DNA of 64,000 bases from Rhytidiadelphus loreus (taxonomy: Eukaryota; Streptophyta; Bryopsida; Hypnales; Hylocomiaceae). Where the stretch lies: assembly GCA_947034895.1 (NCBI GenBank), contig OX344761.1:89727447-89791446 (forward strand), given 5' to 3'. Made by a program: the position numbers and the translations under genes. This document shows positions 13,256 through 52,710 of this stretch, one piece after another (position 1 is the stretch's first letter; every line of letters starts with the position of its first letter). Below the pieces are notes generated by a model that worked only from the letters and a program-made list of their open reading frames with translations, did not search any database and had not been told where the DNA came from.

Positions 13256-15340
13256 TTACGGGGTACTCAAGTTGCTTAGAGCATGTCGGATTGACAAAAT
13301 GTTTATTTTAGTTTCCGGGAAGTGGCCCTTTGTTAGCCAGGATATCACCAGTTGTCGAAGTCGTGTGCGTTGGAATCCGTTACCTTCCAATGTACTAATC
13401 AGTAGCTTGATCTCATCAATAGCTGACTGAGTATCATTGGAGATATACAGGATGGGTAAAACTTGTGATATGATGATATTATACGCATTTCTAACCGGGC
13501 GGTTAGATTTGAATTTTATAAATTGGGTGTATTTGAAGGGTAGAGCCCTCCGTTTGTCAAACTTCTTCATTAAGAAGCGATCACAGTGTATGAAATTAAC
13601 GTTGATTTGTTCATTCATGAAGTGCTCTGAGATCCCTCTTGTAGGGTCATCTTCAGCAAACTTCTCAATTTCCGGTTTGATTTCCAGCACATGGAGAGGG
13701 TATATCCAAAATGGATTGCTCATAATGCGTGGTTGAGTAGGATCCAGGAAGTCCTGGGGATTTTTTACGTTGAGCCAGCAAATGTCATCGATATATCGAA
13801 AGGCATGCTGGAACTTAGCCATGAGGTCAGTGCGACCCAACTTTGCTAAACGTTGTATGAACTTAACCTCATATGATGTTAGATAAATATTGCACCATAA
13901 AGGTGAACAACTGAAACCTATAGGGATTCCTTTTGCTTGGCGCCAAACGCGATCTCCCAAGGTGACCATGCAGTTACACACGAGCCACGAATGTAGCTTC
14001 ATCAGTCTCTCTTGAGGCATAGGAATCCAACAACCATGCTGAGGTTGTGTGGTATCCCATTTCGCTGCTACATGGGTGTTGCTTTGATCGATTCTGACCC
14101 ACAGCATAGTTGCTGCTGTAGGGTGGGTGAGAGAGGCTTCTTTGTAGCCTGTTTTGATAATAAAATTCACAGCATCAAGTAAATTATTAGGCCCGGTAAG
14201 TGGTATTGATTCAAAACATTTGGTAATATCAGCCACATAGATATCATGAATCTCATGAAGAAGATTGAGTGTATCCTGGAGAATAGAGTCCACCATCTAA
14301 AAAATGGACGTGCTGGTCTTGAGGAATGAACGATACCCAGCCACGGTTTTTCTTGCCCATATACGAAACATTTCGAGGACTTGCATTGTGGCTATTGTGA
14401 GGAGCGTTGCGACATTGGTATACACTGTATGGGAGGCATTCGTGAGCCACCTATATTTTAATTTGTGCTGCTTAAACGTTGCCATGAGCAGGGCTTCGGG
14501 TAACAATTCAATGAGCTCGTCTCTAACTGTGTCGAAGATGGATGTGGGTAAGACCCAAAGTATACCTTCCATGCACGGATTGAAGTCCTCACTGGACAAT
14601 CAATGAAATGCTTGCATACGTATGTGTTTGATACATAGAAAGCACGGATTATTGTTGGCTTTGTCAAGTCCTGAGACATATAAGTGGGAAAGTAGCCACT
14701 TTAGCTCGTTGTTTACCGAAGGTATCGACAACAGAGCAGGACCAAAGTGTTTGAAACCAAATGTATTCAATCGTGATGTTGTTTGAAGTCTGTCAAAACA
14801 GAGCTTTTTAAATACTAAAGACGCTACATCCAAGTCTAGAGCAAAGTTGTATAGCTTTAGGATGGAATATAAGCGGATGAAAGCATCAACTGCTATGTCA
14901 AGGGCTTGTTTAATATCCGTAGGAGACAACGGGATATGGTTAAGACCATGACTCAGTGCTTCTCGCAACTTTGGATTTTGAATAATATTGAGGTCAGTAG
15001 TACGAACATGCGGACTGGATTCAAAGGATTCAGAACATTCAAGTACCGTAAGAGGATCAATGAAAGCATGAAAACATTTAGCCTTGGTGCAATTACATGC
15101 ATCATCTGGATCAAGCAGATGTACAAATGAAAAATGTTTGAAAACCTCAGAAGGTTTATAAACCGATGTAGCTAAATTCCTATCATACTGCCAGGAAAAC
15201 GCAATGGAATCCAAATCAACCTGCTCAAGTAAGCCATAGTGAGAAAGGACTTCTCTGAGCATTTGCCGAAGATTGAGCCACTCCATTGCACGGCTGCTGT
15301 AAATGATGGGGAGGTATTTGATCCTTGTTTTTGTTTTCAC
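13256..15340 (-). pseudogene. Reverse transcriptase, interrupted by two stops
   Basis: One minus-strand frame of about 694 codons is interrupted only by TGA at 14600-14602 and TAG at 14297-14299. The C-terminal 346 codons carry RT palm motifs in order: motif A YVADITKCFESIP, motif B KGIPIGFSCSPLWCNIY, motif C FRYIDDI. The N-terminal part has a Cys/His cluster (CNCTKAKCFH) and TTDLNIIQNPKLR, a pattern I associate with Penelope/rvt-like or related RTs rather than gypsy/copia Pol. No RNase H, integrase, protease or GIY-YIG domain is visible. The track start at 15338-15340 is GTG; the frame stays open upstream to a TGA at 15455-15457, adding a CVICAD motif, so the true N-terminus is unclear. Both stops are one transition from a sense codon. 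Decay is most likely; readthrough cannot be excluded. Confidence 0.8.
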
Positions 15341-15930
15341 ACGTTGAATATGCTTGCGTCCATACGCATCCTTTGTTATTACTCTGTCAGGAGCGTCTGC
15401 ACAGATAACACAAGCCTGAGTTGTCGACGTTGTCCCAATTGAGGAAGCGGCCTTTCATAGAAGAGCGTTCAAAACGCGTAGCTGTCTTCGCAGTTGAAGA
15501 GCCTTCGTTATGGATAGGAGAAGACGAATGGTTGTACGCCATCGACAAACCACTTGGAGGGCCTCGAGAATGAGTATGGTGTGATTCCGCAGGGGATATC
15601 TACCCTGTGCTTTGTGGAGGAGCTGTGGAACGGTAGGCTGGGCCTATGAAGATAAACGCCTCATTTGGATTAGGGGAAGGATTCGCCATCTGTGGAGTAT
15701 GTCCGGCACGTGGAGGTGCTCGCTGTTGGGGAGCTGACTAAGGAGTACAACGATACTTTCTATTATAGCCGCCACAACCACCGTGTTGCGTACTTCGTGG
15801 AGCATTACGAGGTAGGGCTTGTGGGGTTCTCTCTCCCATGTAGGTCGATCTGGGGCGCTTGTTCACGTTGCCAGGACCTGTCGATGTTGGATTTGCAGCA
15901 GAGAATCTTGTTGGTTTGATCCATCTTTCT
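15341..15930 (-). other. Interrupted Pro/Ser-rich frames upstream of the RT
   Basis: GC content rises and two overlapping minus-strand frames stay largely open, broken by stops near 15644 and 15455 in the RT frame. The other frame gives Pro/Ser/Gly-rich text (for example SAPQQRAPPRAGHTP) ending close to a CYLC motif. This could be a decayed N-terminal or gag-like region joined to the RT by a frameshift. Confidence 0.35.
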
Positions 15931-22771: not shown

Positions 22772-22782
22772 GGAAGACGCCC

Positions 22783-22885
22783 AGGGTTGCTATTTTGTGA
22801 GCCTGTGAGCGTGAGCGTGTGAGCATGCGAGCATACAATTTTTTCTGTTGGAAATTGATGAAGTACCTATGACCGTGGAAATTGG
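22783..22885. repeat. Left terminal inverted repeat of the 12.3 kb element
   Basis: Dense GTGAGC/GCGAGC motifs, then a single CTATGACCGTGG box. Inverted similarity to 34860-35048, strongest over the outer 45 bases. Confidence 0.7.
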
Positions 22886-23332
22886 AATGAGGACTACACC
22901 TCACAATATATGATGGGAAAAAATAAATTGTGATTTAAATTTTCTGATTGTAGAGTAACTAAATCCATTATCAGTGAAATTCATTGCAAATTTTATTGAC
23001 ACTATGTTAGGGTATTTATAAAGAAAAAGATAATTAGTCTACAAATCACAATTGCACTGAAATAAGGCTATTTATTTTTGGGGTTGATGATGTGAATTTC
23101 ATCCATAAAAATAAATTGTTCATGATGTTTGTTTACATACTGAAATATAGCTTGTAGAATGCAGTTTTTGATTCAATAGAAGATTTGGATCAGGGTTTAG
23201 GGTATGAAGTTGTACCTCTAATTATTTGTTCTTGATCAGGATTATGTAGATAATTCTAATTGAAGTACACAAAACAACGTACAATAAACAATAAAATAAA
23301 AATCAACGCCTGAAAACAAACAAAAAATAGAG

Positions 23333-26300
23333 TCATGTAGATGACGAAGACATAGAATGAGAGTCGTCACTACTCTCAGTGGATGAGATCTCCTGCTCTG
23401 ATTCTAGGGCTGTCTCATCTATAAATTGCAGAATTGTAGGGTCTAAAGACTTAGACTTTCTCCGTCTACAAAAATCCTCTTGACAGGCCAATGTCCCAGC
23501 GACAGCCTCTGCATATGATGGCAACAAAAAGGGCTTCTCCGGGCTTGGAAAAAAAGATGGTAGAGTGAAAAATGGCCGGAGAGCCACCGAATTGTAAGTC
23601 ATGCTGCAAATGAAAAAATGATAATTAGGAATGGCAAGAAGTTCACGATCACGATGAAAGAAGCTTGGAAGAAAAACTTGAAGTGAAAATAATGAATAGT
23701 AGACATCTCTCTTTAGGAAATTTTGGAAAAAAGCAAGCATGGGTAGACTTACTTATTGAAACGAGATTTCTTCACGATGTGGGGAACTTCAATTTCCTGA
23801 CCTTCATCATCGTCAGAATCCTGTACAACGGCAACAACTATAGGTGGAACATCTTTCGGTGCGCGAATCATTGGGGCCAAAATTGCCTCAAAAATGGCTT
23901 TGTCTTCTTCAAGTGCAATGATGTGCCTGCAAGAAATCCTGCAAGCGTGGATGGAAGCCCCTAATCCACAAAACAAAACAAATCCAATTACTACAAAACT
24001 CAATGAGAATTGAAGAAAAAATTAGGATCAACAAAAACAATAGAAGACATTGAATGTTCATGCACATACCGGTCGCAGCAGTGCAATCAATAACAACATC
24101 ATTGGCAAACGTTGATGCTTCTATCAACATCTGCATGAATTGGGGATCCTTTTCTCTTGCACCCCTCCAAGGCTTGAATTTGCTATCCATGGTCAATGTC
24201 TCTTTCTTCGTGAAATTCTGAATAACATCATCAACTGCCACATCTACTCCTAGCTCCCTCAGCTTTGGGCATGGCTGGAATTGAAACTTGGAAGGACCAA
24301 TACCATCCAAGTTCCTGACCAGCAACATGATGCGGAAGAATTGAGTCTACAAGAGCGAAGAGATACACGGTGAATTAGTCCAAATTGAATGATCAAATAT
24401 GAACTATTAGTTGCCATAACAAACCCATAGAAGTAGAAATGTAATCAATTAAGAGAATCAAAATAGAAGTAAACAAAAAATACACCACCTATAGTACATT
24501 ATGTCATATTCAAGAATGATAGCATTTTTGTCAAGAGAAGACGAATCCATGAATAAAATAGGGAAAAGTGAAGGATGATCATACCGTACATCCAGTAGAG
24601 ATTGGTGAGGCCAAATGAAGCCAATTCATTCCCCACCAATCCTTCATCTTCTTAAACGAATATGTTGCAGCATACTTCAAAATCGTAGCCTTGACGACAG
24701 GACTCCGAGAATGAATAATGAGTAACGCACTGTCATCGTACAAATGACCATCAACAAACTTGAACACCGCCTCTAGCCCAGAAGGGTGGACCATGTTCCA
24801 TTTTGGAACAGTATGTGCAGGTGCCGATAGACCTGGGACAGGCAAATCCTCGGGCATGTCCGCAATGACGAGGTCCACTCGGGGTTTATCACTCCGAACA
24901 CCACGGAAGAAACGCTCCTTCTCTCCTTTGTGCTGCAAAATGATTTAATCAATAGCAAACAGACCAATAATGTTAAAGAGCAAAAACCAAAGTAAAAAAT
25001 GGAAGAAAGTGAAAATGCAAACCTTGTCAACAAAACTGACAATGTCATGGTATACTTGGGATAGAGGATCGGCCAAGACATCAGTAAGAGAGTAATTTAG
25101 AACCAGCTCGGCAATCAATATCTCCAAATCCTGAAGGTACTCTACAGCGGATGGACCATGTTGCATCTCGTCATTGCTAAGTGAAGCATACTCAGAATCA
25201 CGCTTAGTGCCACGTGAATTGGAGCGTTGATGTTGGGAGCCCTCGTCTTTTGTGGATGAACGTAAGACACCCTCTTCGGGATTCTTCCCTTTCCCCTTTC
25301 CCTTCTCCGCCGCTAGTACCTGCTCCGACTTAGTAAGCTTCTTTGTCTTCTTCGTGGCTCTCTCCTTTGCCTTGTCCACGGCCTCGGAGTTCTTGAGTGC
25401 AATCTTCTTGTCAACGTCGTCTCTCCTCTTGATTGCCTTTGCCTTGGCATCGTCATCAAGGCCGGCAAACTCGTCAACATCTTGAACCACAGCATCAGTA
25501 TTGATCGACCGCTTCAAATGGTCCTCAGGCAACGGCGTGAATTCCGGCGGGCAATCCAAATACCACGCACCGGTTTTCAAATGCAAACTCGTCCACCATC
25601 TCAATTGCGACGCCGAGAACATGCAATGCTCTGATGAAACATCCAACCATGTTCCCAAAAACGCAGGTAGATCGCGCTTTGCAATTGTCCCCTTAGGCAA
25701 CAGTTCATACTTGAAATACCTGTACAGACCAAACTCTTCAGAATACAGAAAATGATTAAACATCGGCAGTAAACAAACTTAATGAAGCATATCACAATGG
25801 CATTAAGATATCAAATTCTTACCGGTAGATCACCCGTTTGACAACTAGATCAGAGCCCATGTGTTTCTTGAAGTCATCTAACTTTCTGAAGACATCGTGT
25901 CCCCGAAATTGGGGCAAGAAAGCGTGGTCCCACACTCGAATTCTCCAGTCCTCAACATACTCTAGAAAAGTCTCGGGCTCTTGGGGAGAGTCCATAGCTA
26001 ACTTCAACTGGTCTTTCTTCACAATGTTATCAAACATTTCAGCTCCCGTGTCTTGTATCTACAAGGCCATTAAAAGTCGTCATGTATAGTAATAGATTAC
26101 ATCGCAATCCAAATTGCACTAACCATCTAATGTCACCGTGGACTAGATCACAACCCGAAAACGAGATGACTAAAACATGAATGAAATGAAATAAAAACAC
26201 TTACCCCTGCATACCAGCACGCCTTCGATAGGAAAGACTTCAGTTCTATCTCTCCAGTTGGCTTCAGTGGGAACCTTCTTGCCTCCCTCGTTTGAACTGA

Positions 26301-29300
26301 TGAGTTCCACCATGTAAGCCACTTAACCTTATGCTCCTTGCTCACATTGCATGTTGCAATCAACTGCAACTTCTCCAGAGTCATTTCTGGAGTGATGTTG
26401 GAGCTCCAATGACGCTCGATCTGAAAGCATAAATCACTTGAAGCTGAATAAACTAAATGAAACGAGAAGAAGACAAAAACGAGAGGTCTAAAGAAATGTC
26501 ATCATACCTCCTGGAGCCACTCATTTCCCAGATTGGGATTGGCCACAGCAATCAGCTTTCCCAACTTCTGCACTAACCTTGCTGTCTTCTCCTTCGTACC
26601 TAACCTCATGGCAGCCAAGACACCCGCCTCTGACTGCAGATCCTCAGGTGTCTCTTCCCTATACAACCTAACTGCTATGTCGGCAGCCGCAGCTATCTCA
26701 TACTGCAAAACAATATGGAAGTAAGCAAAACATTGGAAGGATTAATGCTTCTACACAACTCAAACATACAAAGAATACGGACACATTGTGTGAGAATCAT
26801 TACCCGATAGATGAATGAAGTGAACACCTCAACGGACATCGAGTACCAACTTTTCCGGAGATTCTGGTGGCACTGAGTCATCTCAGACTCACTCAAATGC
26901 TCTGAGAACTTCTCAAGCGGAAGCATGCCATATTTCTGAACACGATAAAGCGTATGAACAAGACTAGTCTTGATGAACGAACTTTCCGTATGCCTGAAAC
27001 AGAAAACAAAAACGTCAAAATCATCTTAAATGATTACATGGTAAACCAAAAATAAAAAAATGCCTGAATGGGAGCACTTACTTATTGATGTCGTGCATAG
27101 CATGCATGACATCACCAATCTTGCCCTTCGTGTCAAGAATGATCGAGTCCACTGATATATGCCAATCCTTCTCACGGTCGTGGTGTTTACTGATATAAGA
27201 GGTCCATGCCAGAAGTCTATGGTTTCCATCACAAACGAAGAACTTAGACCCCTTGAAGTTCTGCAAACCTGGTGTGGCGTCCAAAATTGCATTGAAGATG
27301 TCATTCTCTTCATTCCACATTAGCCCCCAAGCCTCTCTTTCCGCATCAAACACCATCTCAGTCTCCCCCTGCTCATTAGTGAGTGACACATAAAAAACAT
27401 TTGATCCATCTCTATACCCATGAACGAACTCTTGCTCCAATTTCGTGAGATCACTCTGAAGTGCGGGTCTAACCATGGGCATCTGGACAAGGCGACATAA
27501 CGGAATCCGCAGCCGAAATATGGAAGTAGGTTTCAGACGTAAGTCGGCGATGGAGGCCACAGAATTCACCTTTTGTGACCTCCTGTAGGCATCCTCGGAT
27601 TTGAATTCCTCGTGAGCCTCCCCCATGTCTTGGTCAATATTCACGATCATGAGGTCATTGACAGCAGGTGTGATATTCTCCATTGCAGACTCCGAAACTT
27701 GAACCGGTCCACCTACTTGCACCTGAAACATAAAGGACAACGAAAAAGATCATTACATAGACAAATGCATTGTTGGAGGATAACTTTCGCGGATCAGACC
27801 CTGGGTGCGCAGCCCTTCCCCTCGGCGCCGATGGCATGGCTCGAGGGGGAGCTCTCTGATCAGCATTCATAAAACGAAAAAAAAATCACAAAGAATGTTT
27901 CGGGGCCCAAGCCTGCTCGGATCAGACCCACGGTGGGCAGCCCTTCCCCTCGGCGCCGATGGACAGGCCCTGGGGGGTGTTCTCTGATCAGTATTTATAA
28001 AATGAAAAAAAGGTCACGAAGAACGTGTCGGGCCCAAGCCTCCTCAGATCAGGTCCACGGTGGGCAGCCCTTCCCCTCGGCGCCGATGGACAGGCCCTGG
28101 GGGGTGCTCTCTGATCAGCATTCATGAAACGAAAAAAAGGTCACAAAGAACGTGTCGGGCCCAGGCCTCCTTGAATCAGGCCCACGTTGGGCAGCCCTTC
28201 TTCTCGGCGCCGATGGCCAGGCCCTGGGGGTGTTATTTGATCAGCATTCATAAAACGAAAAAAAAATAACGGAAAAACGTACCTTGGCCCTATCTTCCTC
28301 GGATCAGACCCACGGTGGGCAGTCCTTCCCCTCGGCGCCAATGGATAGGCCCTGGGGGGTGCTCTCTGATCAGCATTCATAAAACGAAAAAAAGGTCACA
28401 AAGAACGTGTCGGGCCCAGGCCTCCTTGAATCAGGCCCACAGTGGGCAACCCTTCCCCTCGGCGCCGATGGCGTGGCCCTGGGGGGTGTTCTCTGATCAG
28501 CATTCATAAAACGAAAAAAAAGTAACGGAGAAACGTACCTTGGCCCTATCTTCCTCAGATTAGACCCACGGTAGGCAGCCCTTCCCCTCAACGCCGATGG
28601 ACAGGCCCTGGGGGGTGCTCTCTGATCAGCATTCATAAAACGAAAAAAAGGTCACGAAGAACGTGTCGGGGAACAAACCTCCTCGGATCAGACCCTGGGT
28701 GCGCAGCCCTTTCCGTGGGTGCCAATGGCGTGGCCGTTGGGGGTTGCCCTGATCAGCATTCATAAACCAAAAAGTTGCGAAGAAACGTATCTGGGCTCAA
28801 GCCTCCGCGGATCAGACCCTCGGTGGGCAGCCTTTCCCCTCGTCGCCGATGGCGTGGCCCCTGAAGGGGTACTGTAATGAGGAACGTGACCGGTGATTAA
28901 ACCCTATGTGGGCCGTGTCTACCTGCTCGGATCCAACCCTCTACAGGATTTACTTCCTCTCGGCACCGATGGCATGGTCGGGGGTTTGGTCGGGGGTAGC
29001 CTTACCCTAAAACAAAATTCGAGAATCTCTATCGAAGACTTACGTTTGCGGGACAAACCCCCAAAACGATCAACAATCCAGTTTACTCTGTATTCATGTT
29101 TCTGCCCTCGGCTAGGATTTCTAGTAATGGTAGAATGATGAATACCTCAGAGCCCGCAGTTGGCGGTTCATCCGTTGTGTTCACCTGATCTGGCCTCTCC
29201 TCCGCAGAGCCCGAAGTTGGTGGTGCAACCATCGTGATCACTTGATGCGGCCCTTCTTCCTCAGAGCCCGCAGTTGGCCGTGCATCCGTCGTGTTCACCT

Positions 29301-29334
29301 GAGGCGGCCCTTCTTCCTCATCGTTGCTGTTCAT
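23333..29334 (-). CDS. ParB-like / DNA methyltransferase-like fusion, 11 exons
   Basis: Spliced model in transcription order: 29334-29146, 27722-27082, 26993-26804, 26702-26508, 26420-26205, 26058-25823, 25719-25023, 24932-24585, 24346-24070, 23960-23753, 23603-23333. All introns are GT-AG, all phases join, and the product is 1155 residues. Residues 1-63 hold three copies of a 19-20 residue repeat (EEEGPPQVNTTD). CDGNHRLLAW at 227-236 resembles the GxHRxxA core of ParB/sulfiredoxin folds. A basic, Lys-rich segment lies near 640-700. FRG...DLVIADMPED (808-817) sits where motif IV (DPPY) would be. EKDPQFMQMLIEAS (969 on), DVVIDCTAATG (987-997) and IIALEED resemble motifs X/I/II of beta-class N4/N6 methyltransferases, in the order IV then I. 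DPPY and FxGxG are altered, so catalysis is doubtful. The tail is Ser/Asp-rich. An in-frame stop just upstream supports the ATG at 29334. Fold calls are by eye; the gene model is stronger than the function. Confidence 0.7.
27778..28990. repeat. Minisatellite in intron 1, 127 bp x about 9.5
   Basis: CGGCGCCGATGG recurs at about 27822, 27951, 28078, 28206, 28335, 28460, 28588, 28713, 28840 and 28963, a period of 123-129 bp. Each unit also has GATCAGCATTCATAAAACG. It is GC-rich against its surroundings and lies wholly within intron 1 (29145-27723) of the methyltransferase-like gene. The period is not a multiple of three, and all six frames are partly open, so the array is not coding. Confidence 0.9.
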
Positions 29335-30723
29335 ATCGTGCTCTTCACTTCTTTGAGCCTCCGCGACCGCGCTCCTAGTGGTTCATCTTCTCGCCATTTC
29401 AGTCTTCGTGTTGACAAGAAATACGTCAGTGATCCGTGATTAAGGATTCAGTCCTTCAATGAAGGATGACTACGAACCCTAACCTCTTAGGAACTTGCAC
29501 AAGGATTGAACCAACGCTCAATGTCTTAGATTCTACAAAGCTTACTGTCCGACCATTAGTCTTCGTGTTTAGGACAAGTGATCTATCAAAATTTCATACC
29601 TAATGTGGTGGTGAGATTATTTGTAGAACTCATTTACTTTGAGGATGACTACCTGATTTATGAAAGTACGTACTACCACATCCAAATACATCAGTAGGTA
29701 TAATAATGGTATCGCCAATACACAATATTGCGAAGAGGTAGCAACTATGAAGGGAGAGTAGATTCACTTACGAAATTACGCAATCGCCTGTGGCCAATGT
29801 TGTTCCTCTGCGGCCCTTCTTCTAGGCTCGTTACAATATGTTGACTCTCAACAATGAGATCTCCATGGAAGTCGTTTTCTTGCATTTGAGCAGTTGCAGT
29901 TCCTTCCCACGACTCAGACTCACACAGTAATGCAACCTTCTTACTTCTATTCCTTGACTTGTGCAACTCCCTACTAGAAGAAAATAAAAGTTTTCTTCTC
30001 TTCCTCCTTTTCCTATATGTATGCCCAATTCCATCGCGTGTGCAATCTGGCGTAAGCATATGACTAATAGTATATACAGTCGACCATATTGTTGATTATT
30101 AGTGGGAAGTGAGGTATTATATTGAAGTAGAACAATTGTTACCAATGATGCTATCATCACTACATCTGCTAAGCAGGCTTCAGTACTTTTAATATTATAA
30201 TTCGTCTCAGGCGTACATGATTTGAACCTACTAGTCATTTGAATTACTATAATTGATATTTTTAAATACCACAAGATTGTCTAACCCGATCTTTGAAATT
30301 GCACATTATTAGAATAGAGTACTCCATTTTCACTAGCGTGTGCCTATAATTTTGTTGGTGACTGGTGACACTTTATGTTTAGACTCCATAGTCGGCGCTA
30401 CTTAATTTCTAGAAGGAACGATCTCCTTTACGTACTACTAACCTTAATAAAGTTCATTTCATTTGGCTTTGGTGTTAATTTTATTCAATGGATAGGTGAG
30501 CGCATTTCCTTAATTACAACCGCAACCGTTTGTATCGTCTGCGCTTCCAAGTACATTGTATACGGATTCTATTTCATTAATGGATATTGATTGCAGATAC
30601 TGACACTGAAAATTCTTTATTATCAAATCTGTTTGGGAGAGGCTCTAGATTCAACCTTTCTTGAGCGCTGCAGAAGTTTAGGTCATATTGTCATTGTCGA
30701 TGTTGTTCTTTGATTTCTGAAAG
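29335..30723. promoter_or_regulatory. Divergent intergenic region of the element
   Basis: Lies between the two divergently transcribed genes and must hold both promoters if the element is one unit. I see no defined TATA box. A possible orphan minus-strand exon at 29772-29973 has acceptor TTTTCTTCTAG and donor GTAAGT and encodes SLEEGPQRNNIG, faintly like the EEEGPPQ repeat of the neighbouring gene. I could not splice it in frame. Confidence 0.4.
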
Positions 30724-30960
30724 ATGGCCTCCCTCAGAGCGGATGGCCACGAGATTCTTCTCATACTCCCTCTAGGAGATGGAGATTTTGTGGCGGTGTC
30801 TGCTCACCTTCTTCATGTACGTTTTGGATTTGCCCTGTCTAGTATCTATGTTGAAGAGGAGGTACTGTCTGAGTCTGGCATTTTGAGAGAGTCGATCCAT
30901 ATGCAGAGAATGGTAGTTGATGACAATCATGTCTGGCATCTTCGTCGAGGGCGTTATTGA
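30724..30960 (+). CDS. Upstream frame, possible transposase N-terminus
   Basis: An ATG at 30724 opens 78 codons (MASLRADGHEILLILPLGD...) ending in TGA at 30958-30960. The frame is the same as the transposase frame starting at 30982, only 21 bases on. This may be the original N-terminus cut off by a CGA/TGG to TGA change, or an upstream ORF that tunes transposase translation. Confidence 0.4.
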   Translation: MASLRADGHEILLILPLGDGDFVAVSAHLLHVRFGFALSSIYVEEEVLSESGILRESIHMQRMVVDDNHVWHLRRGRY

Positions 30961-30981
30961 GCTTATGGTTTACCGTCTGTG

Positions 30982-33900
30982 ATGAGTACAGACTCCACTC
31001 AGATCTTACCTCGGCATTCCGAGCATTCTACAGTGGATATGCCTCCTTCCCATCGTGACAACCGTAACACTTTAGAACGTGAGCATGTTAGGAATGTTGT
31101 CAATCCTCTTCCGTTTGTCACCATCAAGAAGGAACCAAATGACTATGTCATAGATCTCTCGAGTGAGTCCGAGGGAGAGTCTCCAAACCAACCAGCACTT
31201 CCTAGTAGAGTCTCTGAGGGGGCCCACATGACACCGTCTAGTTTAAATTTAACGCCTTCTAGTAGTCCTGCTCTGTCTACGCACTCGCGTCCACCAACAT
31301 ATCCTAGTTGTGCATCTGCGATTAGTATTGTTGGTTGCCTACGCAAGCTAGCGGCGATGCATGGTTCTCGGAACGAAGTAGCTTCGATAGACTATGATGC
31401 ACTCATCCATCATAAGGTGCAATACCTTCCTACAAATTTTAATGGAGATGTAGTTTTTGAGTTGCCTTCTCTTCCAATTTCGATTTCGTCGTCCTCTGCT
31501 GGGAAGTTACAGGGCATGGATAAACGATACGATGGTCACGCTTGGTGTAGGACAATGACGTCTAACATCAACAATCGCGATGGCCTAAAGTTCAGAAAAT
31601 CTTCCTGTGCTGGCCATCTTATCTGTAAGAATTCAGAATGCGACTACTTGAAGCGTTCTTCTCATCCGAACGAGACTGAGTGGTGTGGTTTTACTCCTGG
31701 GCCATTTTGTATTGGTGCATTTCCTCCAAAGGATTCTACTCTCCTCTGTAAGATATGCAAATGTCCGCCTCATTGCATCAATGTCTGTCATGCTCGAATC
31801 TATTACGTTTTTGGAGATTCTGCAAGCATGACTAGAGCTTACATTCATTTGGGGAATCACGTGCATCCTGTAGCTTCAGGAACATGTAGAGAGTCCTTAG
31901 GTGCTGTAGCCGGACTCATCGCTGGTGAGGTTTCGAAAACCCCTAGTGCCACTAACTTTGCCATTGCCCTAGCAGCTAGCAAGAAATTTCTTGATAACCA
32001 CTTGATACACAACGGTGAAGGTCCAAAGCAGATGTTGCGGGGAGATTCGTTAGATGATGTCATAGACAAGTTCCAAATACTAAGTTCTCCTAATATCCGA
32101 AATGTTATTTCGTCTTTCCGTTCAAGTGGCAAAAGTGGGATAATAGATAGTATCATGAATATGAAAAGAAATTTGCGGTTTGAGTACATCCATGACAGTG
32201 TGTTTCCTAGTCAAGGCAAGGAGAAGGTTTATTTGTTTAAAATGCTAGTAGAAGGACCAGGGAGTGGTGTGGACCTTGTGAATCGGATGCAACCGGGCGG
32301 AGATCTGGAGAACGCATGGCTCATGTTTGACCATGTCAAGCGAGTTAAAGATTGGACAACCATGGCCTACCACGTTTATGATACAGGTTGCAGGAAAGTC
32401 ATGACAATTGCTGTGTGTGATATGCAATCTGAGGACACTGTGGTTCAATGCATCATGTGGAGATCTCTGAACGGAGTCATGAGACGCAATGGCGTTGAGA
32501 ATCCAAACTTTAAAGGCTTTATGGCAGACAGTGCACAAGCGAATTGGAATGCCGTTCGAATTGTCTACGGATCAGGAGATCCTAAAATAGAGATGGTGAA
32601 TCGGGAGCGAACATGTCTTTTACATTGGAGTACCTCTTTGCATCGCCATACACAGAAGCTCATCAAGCCGGACTTGCAACACCAACATACTCGACTTTGT
32701 AAGCAATACAAAGACTCCAAATCTATGGACGAAGCTGAGATGCGTTACCTAGCGATACGATCTTGGTGGCTTTCATGTGGAGCAGCCTCGGAAGATGCTA
32801 TGAGGGAATTGGAGTTGTGGCTTGCATTTTGGCACTTCAGATATCGTCAATGGGGCGGCTTTATGCAAATGGTATTTCTTCTACCTAATTATTTTCATTC
32901 TGCAATCTTATGGATCCACTTTTATTTTTCTGAAATCAAATTCGGAACAAATATTTCTGCCTTGTTTGGAGATATTCATCACTCTAGGGTATCGGGGATT
33001 CTCCCCTCGGCGCTGAGGGGAGCCTTTGCCGCATAGTGGTTAGATCAAAGTTTAACTGTGTCATTGTAAATGAGAACTATCAGTGGTGATACTTAATTTT
33101 TCTTTTACTTTGTCTTTGATATCATTGTTTCAGGACTTAAATGTTGAGGAGATGGCGGATATGTCGTCATGCAACTTATCCGAAACAGTCCATAATAGGT
33201 GGTTGCAGCAGTCAGGTAATCGGGGTAATGATTTGTTTGCCGCCACTTCTGATGACTGCATTCGAGCTTTCATGCAAATGACCAATTATCGAGCTTTTCT
33301 TAATGGCAACATATCAAGGTCAGGGCCATCCAAAGAGGAGTTAAAGTTACGAGGCGCTAGACGTAGCGGTGATCCAAAGAAGATTGCGGAGGCACTCAAT
33401 GAACTTCCTAGAGGGGCCGGTGTTGCATCACGTATTCCGCATTTGGAAGGCGAAGAAGTATTTGGTAGCAGTAAGCGCAAGCTTGACCTTCCGATTGGGT
33501 CAGATGGTGACTCCCATCGTCCAGACAAGGTAAACTTCTCTCAGCCCCGAGTACAGACACGATCGACACGTTCACCCACGGTTGCCTCTAATGAAGCAGA
33601 CACACCGGTTGATTCTGCCCATGTACCACATGTGACAACTGCAATGGAGAGTAAATGTGATACTTCACAGTGGCATATTGCAAGAATTTTGCACAAGTCC
33701 AATTGCAAGTGTCACGCGCAACAAAGAAGTTCAAACATCCATTGTGTTGCCAAAATTGCAAAGGGATCTAGAGGTACACCAGCTCCGACCTACCGTGGTA
33801 GAAAAAAACAATATGGCGGAAACAAAGAGATCATGACCGACTTCTGGTTTTGCCCAGATGATATTGAACGATGTGTACGAGGATCTAAACGTAGTTGGGT

Positions 33901-34540
33901 AATTGATTGGCCCCAAGTCCCGGATGTGTGGCATGTACTAACAGGCACTAATTTGACCCGCTAAGAGACGTTGCTGTTGCAGGAGGCTGGTTTCCAGCTA
34001 CAACAACGGCCAGCTATGTCCCCTCGACGTTTATTCACCATGTCCAATGTCTTCCAGGCCATCTACTATGATCACCCTAGTCCTTTACATGCAGACGCAA
34101 ATCCAACTACTCGAAGGAGCAAGGCTATTCGACGTATTGCAAATGCTCCTACAACAGAGCACCGCAATAAATGGGAGAGCACTGGTAATGTCAAGGGAAC
34201 GATTTTGGGAGTAACCTTGCTCCCCTTCCCTGGACTTGGAGCCATAATCTCCCTTCAATCCGGACTTGAGCCAAAGCAGAAGCTTTATCGCATTACACTT
34301 GGCATGTATCCAGAGTGTACTTGTCCCAATTTTGTCGACATGGCCATTTCAGCAATTGGTGGACGCCAACAGTATGTTCATTGCAAACATCTTTATTACT
34401 TACTTCGCTACTTCAACAAAATGAATCCGACAAAGGATAACTTCATACATTCTCCAAGCTTCAGCTTCAATGAAGTGAAGCTCCTTCTCACAAAGGCCGG
34501 TATCATCAAAGTTTCGGAGGATAGTCTTCAACATGTTTAG
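30982..34540 (+). CDS. Mutator-like transposase, Cys/His N-domain plus SWIM
   Basis: Three exons (30982-32871, 33134-33898, 33983-34540) joined by two phase-0 GT-AG introns of 262 and 84 bp give 1070 residues; the second intron has a perfect TACTAAC branch site. Residues 1-130 are Ser/Pro-rich. Residues 180-297 hold a Cys/His cluster (SSCAGHLIC, CKICKCPPHC, YIHLGNHVHP), reminiscent of the WRKY-GCM1 DNA-binding superfamily found in some MULEs. A MULE-type DDE core follows: LMFDHVKRVKDW (about 450), MTIAVCDMQSED (about 475), FKGFMADSAQANWNAVR (about 512-528), CLLHW. The C-terminus has a SWIM finger C-x-C-x19-C-x-H at 997-1021. The enzyme would cut and join the element's ends. Apart from the upstream TGA at 30958 the gene is intact. 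Confidence 0.8.
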
Positions 34541-34787
34541 AAGTCCAACAATACCTAAGTGATCGGTGTTAATGATTGAAGGATTGTAGACTAAAGTTAG
34601 ATGTCTAGCTTCAAAAGTACCATTTTGTATTTGGACAAATACAGTAATTCCTTGAAGTATTCAGTACAGCCTATTTTCAATCAGAATTTGCATTTTCCTA
34701 TAGGTCATCTGTTTGCCTTTCACAATATGTACTTCTATTACTGTAACCAATGATTAAAATTAAAAAATTTATACAAATTGTACATAA

Positions 34788-34885
34788 CCACGGTAATAGA
34801 TCCATGGTAAGAAGTCATGGGTGCTAAGTCCACGGTAACCGGCCCATGGTGCTAAGTCCACGGTCATAGGTCCACGGTCATTGTG
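34788..34885. promoter_or_regulatory. Subterminal CCACGGT/CCATGGT repeat cluster
   Basis: Six copies of a CCAYGGT core within 100 bp, several preceded by TAAGT or TAGGT. One inverted copy lies near the left end (22870). Clustered subterminal motifs of this kind are candidate transposase binding sites. Confidence 0.5.
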
Positions 34886-35048
34886 TCCTAAAATTTACTC
34901 AAAATAGTAAGTTTTATAATAATTATTAAAAAAATTCTATTTTTTGAAATATTACTCAGTTTTTTATAATTTCAGAACTCCACGCTCACATACTTCCTGC
35001 TCAACGCTCGCAAGCTCGCGCTCACACGCTCACAATCTAGCACCGTTG
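34886..35048. repeat. Right terminal inverted repeat of the 12.3 kb element
   Basis: Its reverse complement starts CAACGGTGCTAGATTGTGAG and continues with GTGAGC/GCGAGC motifs matching the left end at 22783-22836. Confidence 0.7.
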
Positions 35049-35334
35049 GGAAGACGCCCACTGAGTTTTGATTGATGCTCAAGCCATTGCTCAACAGGAG
35101 TTTCACCCAGTGACCTCTTTAATATCACCACTCTAATTTCCATCCTTTTGAGTTCACACCAAACCTTATAGAATGGACAATGAGCTTATTTAATTTACCG
35201 AATTCAAAGCTCATTTTGCATCCTCACTATCACATTTTGATATGTCACAAGAAGCTTTGTGTACAAGTGTGAAATTAAGAAGATTGATAGTGGTAAAAGG
35301 GTTCTAGTCATTAGATCATCATGGTACTAATTAG

Positions 35335-50007: not shown

Positions 50008-51276
50008 CTAGATCACGTAATCCGACCACTCCTTAATGAAGGAGGTGTGATTCATAGACCTCCCGGGAATCTCCTTCAACTGGGCAGGCTTTTGTTTCCC
50101 ACCTATCAAACGAGCAGGGTTTCCTACAGCTGTAGTATGAGGAGGCACATCAATCAGCACAATGGAACCAGCTCCAATCTTCGCCCCTTCGCCTATTGTA
50201 ATGTTGCCGAGGATGATTGCCCCAGCGCCAATAAGAACACCATCACGAATTTTGGGATGACGATCCCCTTCCACAGCGCCCGTGCCTCCCAGAGTAACAT
50301 GATGCAAAATTGAAACATTATTTCCTATGGTAGCCGTCTCCCCTACCACCAGCCCTGTGGCGTGGTCGAAAAGCACGCCGGAGCCTATCTTCGCCGCAGG
50401 ATGAATGTCGACATGGAAAACCTCGGAGACTCTGCTCTGAATCGCCAAAGCTAATGAGTGTCGCCCTTGGTTCCAGAGCCAGTGCGCGACTCTGTACGCT
50501 TGGCAGGCCAAGAATCCTTTATAATTGAGCAAACAATGGGAATACGAAACACATGCAGGGTCACGCTCCTTCACGGCTTCAATGTCGTCCCGAATCGCAC
50601 GCCGGATGCTGGCGTCTTCCATGAATGTGTCGTTGAGCAGGCTGAAGAGCTGTGTGCTTAAGAGTGTACTGTTGGAGAGCTTGTTTCCGAGGTGGAAAGC
50701 GAGCGATCTCTCCAGTGATCTGTGCGAAAGTATCGTCGAATATAAGTAACTGGCTAGGGCTGGCTCCTTGATGGAATCCCAGCGCGCCTCCTCTCTCATT
50801 TTGAGCCACAGATGGTCGACTTCCTCCATGGCTGGAAGATCCTCCACAACGCTGACATCCCTGTTGTCAGTCCGGGATGGCGACAGCAATGCGCTCTGAT
50901 ACTCCAGCAAGGGAATGACATCCCTAAAATTCTCCAGCACCTGCGAGTCCTTCGTGGAGCCTCGCCCTTCCATCAAGATAGCCATGGTGGACGGTAAACC
51001 CTGGCGCCGGCTCTTACGCGAAACGGTTACTGGCAAGGAGCTCGAAAAAGCTGCATTGGAAGACAACGGCGACGACGAGCACTCCGAGCGCTGGCAAGAA
51101 GACGCGCCGCTGTCTGACCGAAGCGCCAGCGACACGGGAGAACATTTCACACAGCCGCCCTCACAGAAACGAGGCTTCGCAGTGCCGTCAAGCCTCGCCA
51201 CCGAGCTCGCCACCTTCACCATGAGGTCGGCTCGCGGCAACGCCGCCGCGGCCATCCCTACTCCCGCCGCCTTCAT
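50008..51276 (-). CDS. SERAT: Serine O-acetyltransferase
   Basis: Transfers acetyl from acetyl-CoA to L-serine to make O-acetylserine, the entry step of cysteine synthesis, acting with O-acetylserine(thiol)lyase. An intronless 422-residue frame from the ATG at 51276; the TTG 18 bases upstream is not a likely start. Residues 1-100 are Ala/Arg/Ser-rich and basic, a plastid or mitochondrial leader. The N-terminal helical SAT domain spans about 150-280 (WLKMREEARWD, YKGFLACQAYRVAHWLW). The left-handed beta-helix follows: VDIHPAAKIGSG, FDHATGLVVGETA with the catalytic His region (304-308), VTLGGTG, GDRHPKI, IGAGAIILGN, VPPHTTAVGNPARLIGG. The C-terminus EWSDYVI is the tail that docks into OAS(thiol)lyase. 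No frameshift or stop. Confidence 0.95.
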   Translation of the reverse strand: MKAAGVGMAAAALPRADLMVKVASSVARLDGTAKPRFCEGGCVKCSPVSLALRSDSGASSCQRSECSSSPLSSNAAFSSSLPVTVSRKSRRQGLPSTMAILMEGRGSTKDSQVLENFRDVIPLLEYQSALLSPSRTDNRDVSVVEDLPAMEEVDHLWLKMREEARWDSIKEPALASYLYSTILSHRSLERSLAFHLGNKLSNSTLLSTQLFSLLNDTFMEDASIRRAIRDDIEAVKERDPACVSYSHCLLNYKGFLACQAYRVAHWLWNQGRHSLALAIQSRVSEVFHVDIHPAAKIGSGVLFDHATGLVVGETATIGNNVSILHHVTLGGTGAVEGDRHPKIRDGVLIGAGAIILGNITIGEGAKIGAGSIVLIDVPPHTTAVGNPARLIGGKQKPAQLKEIPGRSMNHTSFIKEWSDYVI

Positions 51277-52710
51277 CCGCCGCCGCTTCTTCAAATTCTC
51301 TCAGGAAAAACACAAATTTTTTTCCAAAAATTCTTCCAAAATTCGCAAATCTCAACCCTCCTCTCAAAATCGAAACAGGCTCACAGGTTCACAATCTCCC
51401 TCCAGAAACCAAATCACAATGAGCTCAAGTACAGACTAACCCCGAATTGTCCAGAAATACTCAACTGCGGCCCAATTTGGCCCGTTGTGCGCCTCGTTTG
51501 GAATTGCGAAACTAGAGCTACTCACGACAATAGTGGTGAAGATTGGAGGAGGGGCTTTGCGGAAGATTGTTGAAGACTGGTGGCAGTGGAGCGGAACTAA
51601 TATACTCACTCTGTATTCCGTGTCCAGCGCTCCACCCCCTTCGTTCGTGTGCTTCTTTCCCACCTTCCTCTCTTCCCGACTTTCTTTACCTCCCTTTCTT
51701 TATCTTTTGGGGGCTCCTCCTCGCCAACACCAAAGGACTTTCTTTTTGATTCCGGATTTCTTTTCCGGATCTTACTCAGCCAGGTTTCGTCTCGTTCTTC
51801 ATCCGCGTGAGAGTGTCCAGTCAAAGGGGTAGATTTCGGTATAAGTGTTGCAATGAGTTTATTAATTCTTTTTAGAAGTTTCACAAAGAAAAAAAGAAAA
51901 AAATGGGAATCAGTTGGATAGTTTTGTTGTTTACGCTACCAAGACCTCAAAAAGTGAGTTTGTTCAATATTTGATGTCTTCTTTTGAAAAGAAAAAAGAA
52001 AAATGATTAACACCTTAAATTTTAGATGCTTATTATATTATCGGTGTAACTCTCAAGTGAGTGAATTCCAAGTCGATGAATTGCACGTTGTTGTATACTC
52101 GAGGATGAATGTGTTTTCATCAAGTCATAGAAATGTTGATTTCATGCTTACAAATGCTGAGTTTATAGCTGATATGTAAAGATGGTGCAGGGCATACTGG
52201 TATAATATAGCTTTACGTGCCCTCTAACAGGGTAATTCAGTGTGGTGACTCGAACTGAAGGAAATTGCTATCGAATGCAGAGGTGAACAGCCTCCGCTCC
52301 TTCCTATGAGTAGTAATAAGGGTACTACTGTACAGAAACAGTCTGTCAGTTTATCGTTACAAACAGCATCCAAAATACCTCAATAGAAAAAGAGCTTCAA
52401 TTGGGGCCGGCAAGGGAGAAGATGAATTTCAATTGGACGGAAGAAGGACACTTGGCGAACCTCCTCTGGGCAAGGGAGTCCTCCGTCAACCGTGGCAGTT
52501 ATGTTGCACATCTGCCGTGGTTCTCAAATCTCAGCTTCTCAATCAAAAAGAGTCGAACTGTAACTGAAGAAATGATAAGTGTTGCCACGAGTCGGTTTGT
52601 CTCACTGCTGTGTCATGTCGGACCCCCCTGGCTGGTGCCGTGGTGGTTGGCTTTGGACTACTGTACGTATTCTACTTTTTGCCGTTGATACAAATTTCGA
52701 TTTAGAAAAG
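51277..52710. other. SAT upstream region, no further gene recognised
   Basis: Purine/pyrimidine-biased sequence follows the SAT start and probably includes its promoter and leader. Open frames at 51485-51832 and 52401-52688 carry no motif. Confidence 0.4.

Follow-up and report, generated by a model that had tools for sequence, protein, structure and literature searches.

Which role a methyltransferase-like protein plays when it is carried by a Mutator-type transposon next to the transposase is the question raised by an element in the genome of the moss Rhytidiadelphus loreus. The element lies in a stretch of 64,000 nucleotides of contig OX344761.1, which was analyzed as a whole and is referred to below as the window, and the complete transposon spans positions 22782-35048. 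Its anatomy is near certain: it represents a family of two-gene Mutator-type (Mutator-like element, MULE) DNA transposons of an early-diverging land plant. The statement as a whole, that the second protein of this two-gene MULE would be a non-catalytic, DNA-binding factor directed against silencing, is put forward tentatively, our confidence in it falling somewhat short of even.

The limits of the element were established from its other copies, using searches that covered the 407-Mb genome, the five large contigs of which measure 51-94 Mb. Fifteen copies were readable at both ends, namely the window, L061/L032, L065/L040, and 12 copies with short left stretches (L067-L078), and a duplication of the target site, counted as present at 9 or more of 10 bases, was found in 14 of them, 12 with all 10 bases and two (L067 and L075) with 9/10. 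The direct flanks noted in the preliminary description are indeed present, the duplication being 10 bp and not 11 bp in length, since the eleventh base, a C, belongs to the element as its first base. The script used to detect the duplications worked in an 11-base register, and the 10-base register, as well as the row of L067, was read by eye. Target duplications of Mutator elements and MULEs have 8-11 bp, and the 10 bp of the moss element differ from the 9 bp of maize Mu.

The 21-bp terminal inverted repeats are identical at 16 of 21 positions, a match that was not reached by any of 100,000 random pairs of 21-mers from the window. Directly inside them lies a longer and imperfect inverted repeat of 29 nt, which accounts for the ends rich in GTGAGC/GCGAGC that had been described, and the CCTATGACCGTGGA box, reported as inverted inside each end, occurs once per strand across the whole window, at 22866 (+) and 34857 (-). 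The right ends of 30 loci (L031-L060, L031 being the window) stop at one place and have different flanks; that of L058 is one base short, and some of them contain single-base differences. On the basis of the shared right ends, the duplications, and the comparison of the terminal repeats with random pairs, chance flanks or ends were rejected. It should also be mentioned that a copy at C3 ~7809378-7823784 (L065, L062, L004, and L040) has both ends and no matching duplication, perhaps as a result of recombination between copies.

The 10-bp duplications around the gene pair show that both genes lie between the same terminal repeats and move together. The pairing of the genes was further examined by comparing 64 transposase places with 106 of the 151 matches to exon 2 of the second gene, about 45 rows at 52-61% identity being left out. 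A divergent exon-2 match is located at most 25 kb upstream of all 29 transposases at 83% identity or more (the window's own included) and of 27 of the 35 transposases at 71-76% identity. For the remaining eight, 10 rows picked from the 142 exon-7 matches were used, which revealed a partner within 25 kb for six and at ~43 kb for one; the last, at C4:74282177, has no second-gene partner within 60 kb. In total, the second gene is thus upstream, divergent, and within 25 kb in 62/64 transposases. Viewed from the second gene, 28 of the 34 exon-2 matches at 79% identity or more are accompanied by a transposase at 25 kb or less on the expected side, four have the right end alone at 16-45 kb, and two have nothing within 60 kb. 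Only three exon-2 matches lie within 25 kb but on the wrong side or strand.

Because the pairing extends to 62/64 transposases across subfamilies, one gene standing alone, which the preliminary description had named as the outcome that would speak against its proposal if consistent, is a rare exception (1/64 transposases and 2/34 exon-2 matches at 79% or more). The second gene is therefore integral to the element in the subfamilies compared in this genome, as had been proposed, and the two genes stayed together while the subfamilies diverged to 71-76% transposase identity. The exon-2 matches at 52-61% identity, about 45 in number and many with open frames, may represent further subfamilies of the element or domesticated copies.

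The layout of two divergent multi-exon genes ending about 0.5 kb from opposite ends is confirmed, with 11 exons for the second gene and two for the transposase gene, and distances of 554 and 508 bp, respectively, to the ends of the element. In the gene model, the introns of the second gene are of the GT-AG type and the 1155-residue frame has no stop. Related exons were found in L061-L064: all 11 exons in L062, exons 2-11 in L063, and exons 2-10 in L064 are stop-free, and L061 has 11 exons, contains two stops, and is disrupted in exon 2. In the latter copy, exon 2 is interrupted in the region L061:2000-4230, and the repeats found there are very unlike the array of the window. Between subfamilies, the second protein has dN values of 0.17-0.26 with saturated synonymous sites, as calculated for the whole protein in 5/5 comparisons, and within the family a dN/dS of 0.35 was obtained (one pair computed, L061 being left out). 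The low dN at saturated synonymous sites, together with this ratio, argues that the second protein is kept under purifying selection. Two distant relatives, encoded by the genes R1sor_014411 and R1sor_001606, were found in the liverwort Riccia sorocarpa, with E values of 5e-27 and 1e-15.

The C-terminal region of the second protein is matched by PF01555 in all four subfamily members (best E 2.6e-5), and type II methyltransferase models also match 4/4 members (best E 1.1e-6), both sets of matches covering the region of motif I; the methyltransferases of PHROG match the window member with an E value of 8.2e-5. In the alignment with the DpnA-type structures 5hfj and 5hek, the motif IV stretch precedes motif I, and the predicted domain accordingly has the permuted order that is characteristic of the beta-class amino-methyltransferases with motif IV before motif I. 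In place of the catalytic (D/N/S)PP(Y/F/W) motif of the N6_N4 methyltransferase class, the four aligned members have ADMPE. A degenerate ADMPE pattern gave 71 matches in the genome and its reversed control none, 66 of the 71 being no more than 600 b away from an exon-7 match (110 of the 142 were used in this test), while the DPPY version gave no genomic matches as an exact pattern, with NPPY, SPPY, and other variants not searched. In Riccia sorocarpa P0001, DLPT is read by eye near the place comparable to motif IV.

The aromatic residue of motif IV, which normally stacks on the target base, is missing wherever this motif was seen. It is likely that catalysis has been lost, and the second protein is probably a pseudo-enzyme because its motif IV reads ADMPE and the DPPY version is absent; the earlier suggestion of a possibly dead methyltransferase agrees with the four aligned members and with the ratio of 71 to 0 genomic patterns. 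The label of a ParB protein, on the other hand, finds no profile support and rests on the DGNHRL motif, which together with an IPL...L start recalls ParB by eye. Searches with the profiles of Pfam, NCBIfam, PHROGs, and PDB gave no ParB match to the second protein, only weak unrelated rows, and hhalign against phage P1 ParB returned a probability of 0.1. The structure model of the exon concerned has a pLDDT of 38.6 and was not used. The ParB label should be dropped until shown.

The protein search with the transposase returned 154 matches. The window copy contains two in-frame stops, at 30958 and 33962, and 7 of 30 copies have no stop codons as far as they could be aligned. In the transposase model, D288 sits in the first core strand and D354 directly after a core strand, which is consistent with a catalytic role of both residues. 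A fold search with the core revealed a resemblance to the transposase of ISCth4, at 9-13% identity and with TM-scores of 0.22-0.32; ISCth4, which we take to be a member of the IS256 family, differs from the present element in being a bacterial insertion sequence. The protein is classed as a DDE transposase, with an RNase H core like those of MULE and IS256 enzymes. SWIM zinc fingers are frequent in Mutator and MULE transposases, and in this protein a SWIM-like CxC...CxH motif is seen by eye, with no Pfam match. By its transposase core, 10-bp duplications, and terminal inverted repeats, the element belongs to the Mutator/MULE superfamily, as originally described, and the copies with the gene pair, matching ends, and duplications that the preliminary description had called for are available, 14 of 15 having a 10-bp duplication.

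The non-coding DNA of the element contains a tandem array in intron 1 of the second gene, the size of which varies widely, from 8.4 units of 127 bp in the window to 24.4 in L062. In comparable places, L064 has 18.5 units of 106 bp, upstream of exon 2, and L063 has shorter repeats. For the heptamer CCACGGT, 12 sites were counted in the element (over 22794-35037, which omits 11-12 bases at either end), where 0.73 would be expected, and three in the remaining 51.8 kb of the window; four of the 12 are in the array, one is near the left end, and four are near the right end. L062 contains 15 of them.

This variable array and the CCACGGT boxes, in a layout like that of the VANC elements, favor a DNA-binding anti-silencing protein. 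In the proposed mechanism, the second protein would have lost or strongly altered its base methylation and survive by virtue of sequence-specific binding to DNA or of binding to a cofactor. Its targets would lie in the non-coding DNA of the element, namely in the intron-1 array and the CCACGGT boxes near both ends, and, once bound, it would counter silencing by the host in the manner of VANC of the Arabidopsis VANDAL elements. For these, Hosaka and co-workers report that the introns of VANC contain dynamic tandem repeats in which the target motifs of VANC are found, and that the VANC proteins themselves have peptide motifs in tandem (PMC5735166). VANDAL/Hiun of Arabidopsis is, like the moss element, a Mutator-type plant element with extra genes and with intron and upstream tandem repeats that gain and lose copies (PMC5735166). 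However, VANC carries DUF1985 and DUF287 (PMC5735166), whereas the gene of the moss element ends in a methyltransferase-like domain. The parallel is one of layout and not of sequence, and anti-silencing in the moss element is proposed by analogy.

A number of observations weigh against this interpretation. The Pfam scores of the window member for PF01555, 18.4 and 20.9 bits, do not reach the curated value of 26.7 bits, the PDB match has an E value of 0.03, and the part of this match that holds motif IV does not reach significance by itself. For 44 of the 110 exon-7 matches, an exact ADMPE pattern is lacking at distances up to 600 b, and the replaced motif IV, although it makes catalysis unlikely, would still be compatible with retained catalysis. 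When the complete second protein was scanned with Pfam, the matches with E values up to 5 were limited to PF01555 and CCDC47 and included neither DUF1985 nor DUF287, VANC sequences not being directly compared. Regarding the boxes, 3 of the 12 CCACGGT sites are elsewhere (two in exon 2 of the transposase gene and one in another intron), the units of an array do not count as independent of each other, and the heptamer is found once in L061 and not at all in the fetched parts of L063 and L064, where the fetched parts of these three copies exclude the element ends save the left end of L061. In addition, one of the 15 copies (L065/L040) is without any target duplication, and the approximately 45 diverged exon-2 matches (52-61%) are outside the transposase-partner check.

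Among the explanations considered, the anti-silencing protein is ranked first, its main rival being a helper of transposition, and an active, unusual methyltransferase comes third. As a helper of the mudrB kind, the second protein would bind the subterminal boxes and aid synapsis or integration, with silencing untouched. The positions of the CCACGGT boxes, which are subterminal at both ends, and the strict pairing of the two genes are consistent with this, as is the finding that the second gene of maize MuDR is apparently required for integration (PMC6446971). However, such a function leaves both the S-adenosylmethionine (SAM)-methyltransferase fold and the fast-changing intron array unexplained, and we consider it somewhat unlikely. 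An active amino-methyltransferase with an unusual D-M-P-E motif IV would instead mark the DNA of the element, either for masking or for recognition by the transposase. That the D and G of motif I and the acidic EED are invariant in 4/4 members, that D and P are retained at the first and third positions of DPPY, and that an N4-methylcytosine enzyme of the same class works in bdelloid rotifers (PMC8885841) would speak for such an enzyme. The aromatic fourth residue, however, is E in all four aligned members, the exact DPPY pattern gave no genomic matches, and DLPT stands at the comparable place in Riccia P0001 by eye, so that this alternative appears improbable.

Two further explanations concern the association of the genes. 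MULEs are able to capture host genes (PMC6446971), and the second gene might be a host gene or a fragment captured by chance, in the manner of a Pack-MULE passenger. The pairing in 62/64 transposases across subfamilies at 71-76%, the common exon structure, and the slow change of the protein make this very improbable; a Pack-MULE has no transposase, while one is present here, and the possibility is largely refuted. It is also hardly credible that two adjacent, independent repeat families mimic one element. Distances of 14.5 and 20.7 kb do separate the genes in two members of the element's own family, and ~42 kb in one copy of the next subfamily, but the duplications surround the gene pair in 14/15 copies, for which two neighboring families are refuted, and the longer gaps may be nested insertions. 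Returning to the anti-silencing protein, its fuller evolutionary version would have a bacterial-type amino-methyltransferase taken up by a plant Mutator lineage, deprived of its catalytic motif, and recast as a sequence-specific anti-silencing protein co-evolving with the fast-changing target array in its first intron, an independent counterpart of VANC that spans the 71-76% subfamilies and has distant relatives in Riccia sorocarpa. With all of these steps, it is possible but on balance doubtful.

Epigenetic tools of their own are known from few DNA transposons, namely VANC in Arabidopsis, TET/JBP in fungi, and SET in oomycetes (PMC12730594). The fungal elements with a TET/JBP dioxygenase and the oomycete elements with a SET histone methyltransferase likewise contain a gene for an epigenetic enzyme; they differ in the hosts and in the enzyme, which is not an amino-methyltransferase (PMC12730594). 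MuDR of maize, with mudrA and mudrB, is similarly a two-gene Mutator element (PMC6446971). Virus-integrated Mariner elements with a methyltransferase gene (PMC3627910) and DIRS1-like retrotransposons with an MT domain (PMC3266345) are also mobile elements that encode a domain of the methyltransferase type, but the former are Mariner elements and the latter tyrosine-recombinase retroelements. The eukaryotic use of bacterial-type amino-methyltransferases is known from N4CMT of bdelloid rotifers, a permuted enzyme of the PF01555 type, and from the 4mC methyltransferase of Marchantia (PMC8885841). Both of these differ from the moss protein, to which they are likened by description and not by sequence, in that they are host genes with reported 4mC activity and are not borne by transposons.

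In the open-access literature, with few subscription papers included, we found no description of a Mutator element whose second gene resembles an amino-methyltransferase. This gene would be what is new here, transposons with other epigenetic genes being already known. The second gene may help the transposon to evade or exploit the control exerted by plant DNA methylation. If this is true, a conserved and probably non-catalytic methyltransferase fold in a plant element of many copies would mean that enzymes of DNA modification can become binding proteins in the arms race over silencing. The element would also lend itself to experiments in early land plants, several of its copies having an intact-looking transposase and a candidate target array being visible. 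The features of the element are collected in Table 1.

Table 1. Positions of the features of the transposon and its flanks in the window
Feature	Position	Strand	Remark
Left target-site duplication GGAAGACGCC	22772..22781	.	10-bp duplication in 14/15 copies
Left terminal inverted repeat CAGGGTTGCTATTTTGTGAGC	22782..22802	+	
Inner inverted repeat, GTGAGC/GCGAGC-rich, left arm	22804..22832	+	83% complementary to 35006-35034
CCTATGACCGTGGA box, left	22866..22879	+	
Second gene, 11 exons	23336..29334	-	1155 aa in the model; C-terminal permuted DNA-methyltransferase-like domain
Motif I site	24080..24100	-	DVVIDCT, continuing AATG
Motif IV site	24852..24875	-	reads DLVIADMP, then E
Second-gene exon 2	27082..27722	-	conserved domain with DGNHRL motif (ParB label unproven)
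Tandem array in intron 1	27750..28980	.	127-bp unit, x8.4; 4 units hold CCACGGT
Second-gene exon 1	29146..29334	-	mostly a 57-bp (19-aa) tandem repeat, x3.1
Transposase gene	30724..34540	+	exon 1, 30724-32871; exon 2, 33134-34540
First catalytic-type Asp of the RNase H core, D288 (MFDHVK)	32329..32331	+	nearly invariant, 37-row alignment
Second catalytic-type Asp, D354 (MADSAQ)	32527..32529	+	nearly invariant, 37-row alignment
SWIM-like zinc-finger motif CxC...CxH (ECTCPNF...VHCKH)	34316..34410	+	by eye from the translation; no Pfam match
Four CCACGGT boxes near right end	34788..34878	+	including inverted CCTATGACCGTGGA box at 34857-34870
Inner inverted repeat, right arm	35006..35034	-	overlaps terminal repeat
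Right terminal inverted repeat	35028..35048	-	last base reached in 29/30 right ends
Right target-site duplication GGAAGACGCC	35049..35058	.	

Outside the element, the region 13256-15454 on the minus strand contains a reverse-transcriptase-like open reading frame (ORF, 13259-14296) with a YIDD motif and a match to PF00078 (E 4.7e-5, below the curated cut-off). It adjoins another ORF with no Pfam match, the two being probably a decayed retroelement. A serine acetyltransferase gene is located at 50011-51300, also on the minus strand, and its relatives would place the host close to the early-diverging land plants, in keeping with a moss. Among the best 120 of its 7998 matches are relatives from Physcomitrium patens and Sphagnum (82% each), Selaginella (81%), and Marchantia (79%); within the same 120, other sequences reach up to 97%, and one cotton entry at 69% scores higher than the relatives named.

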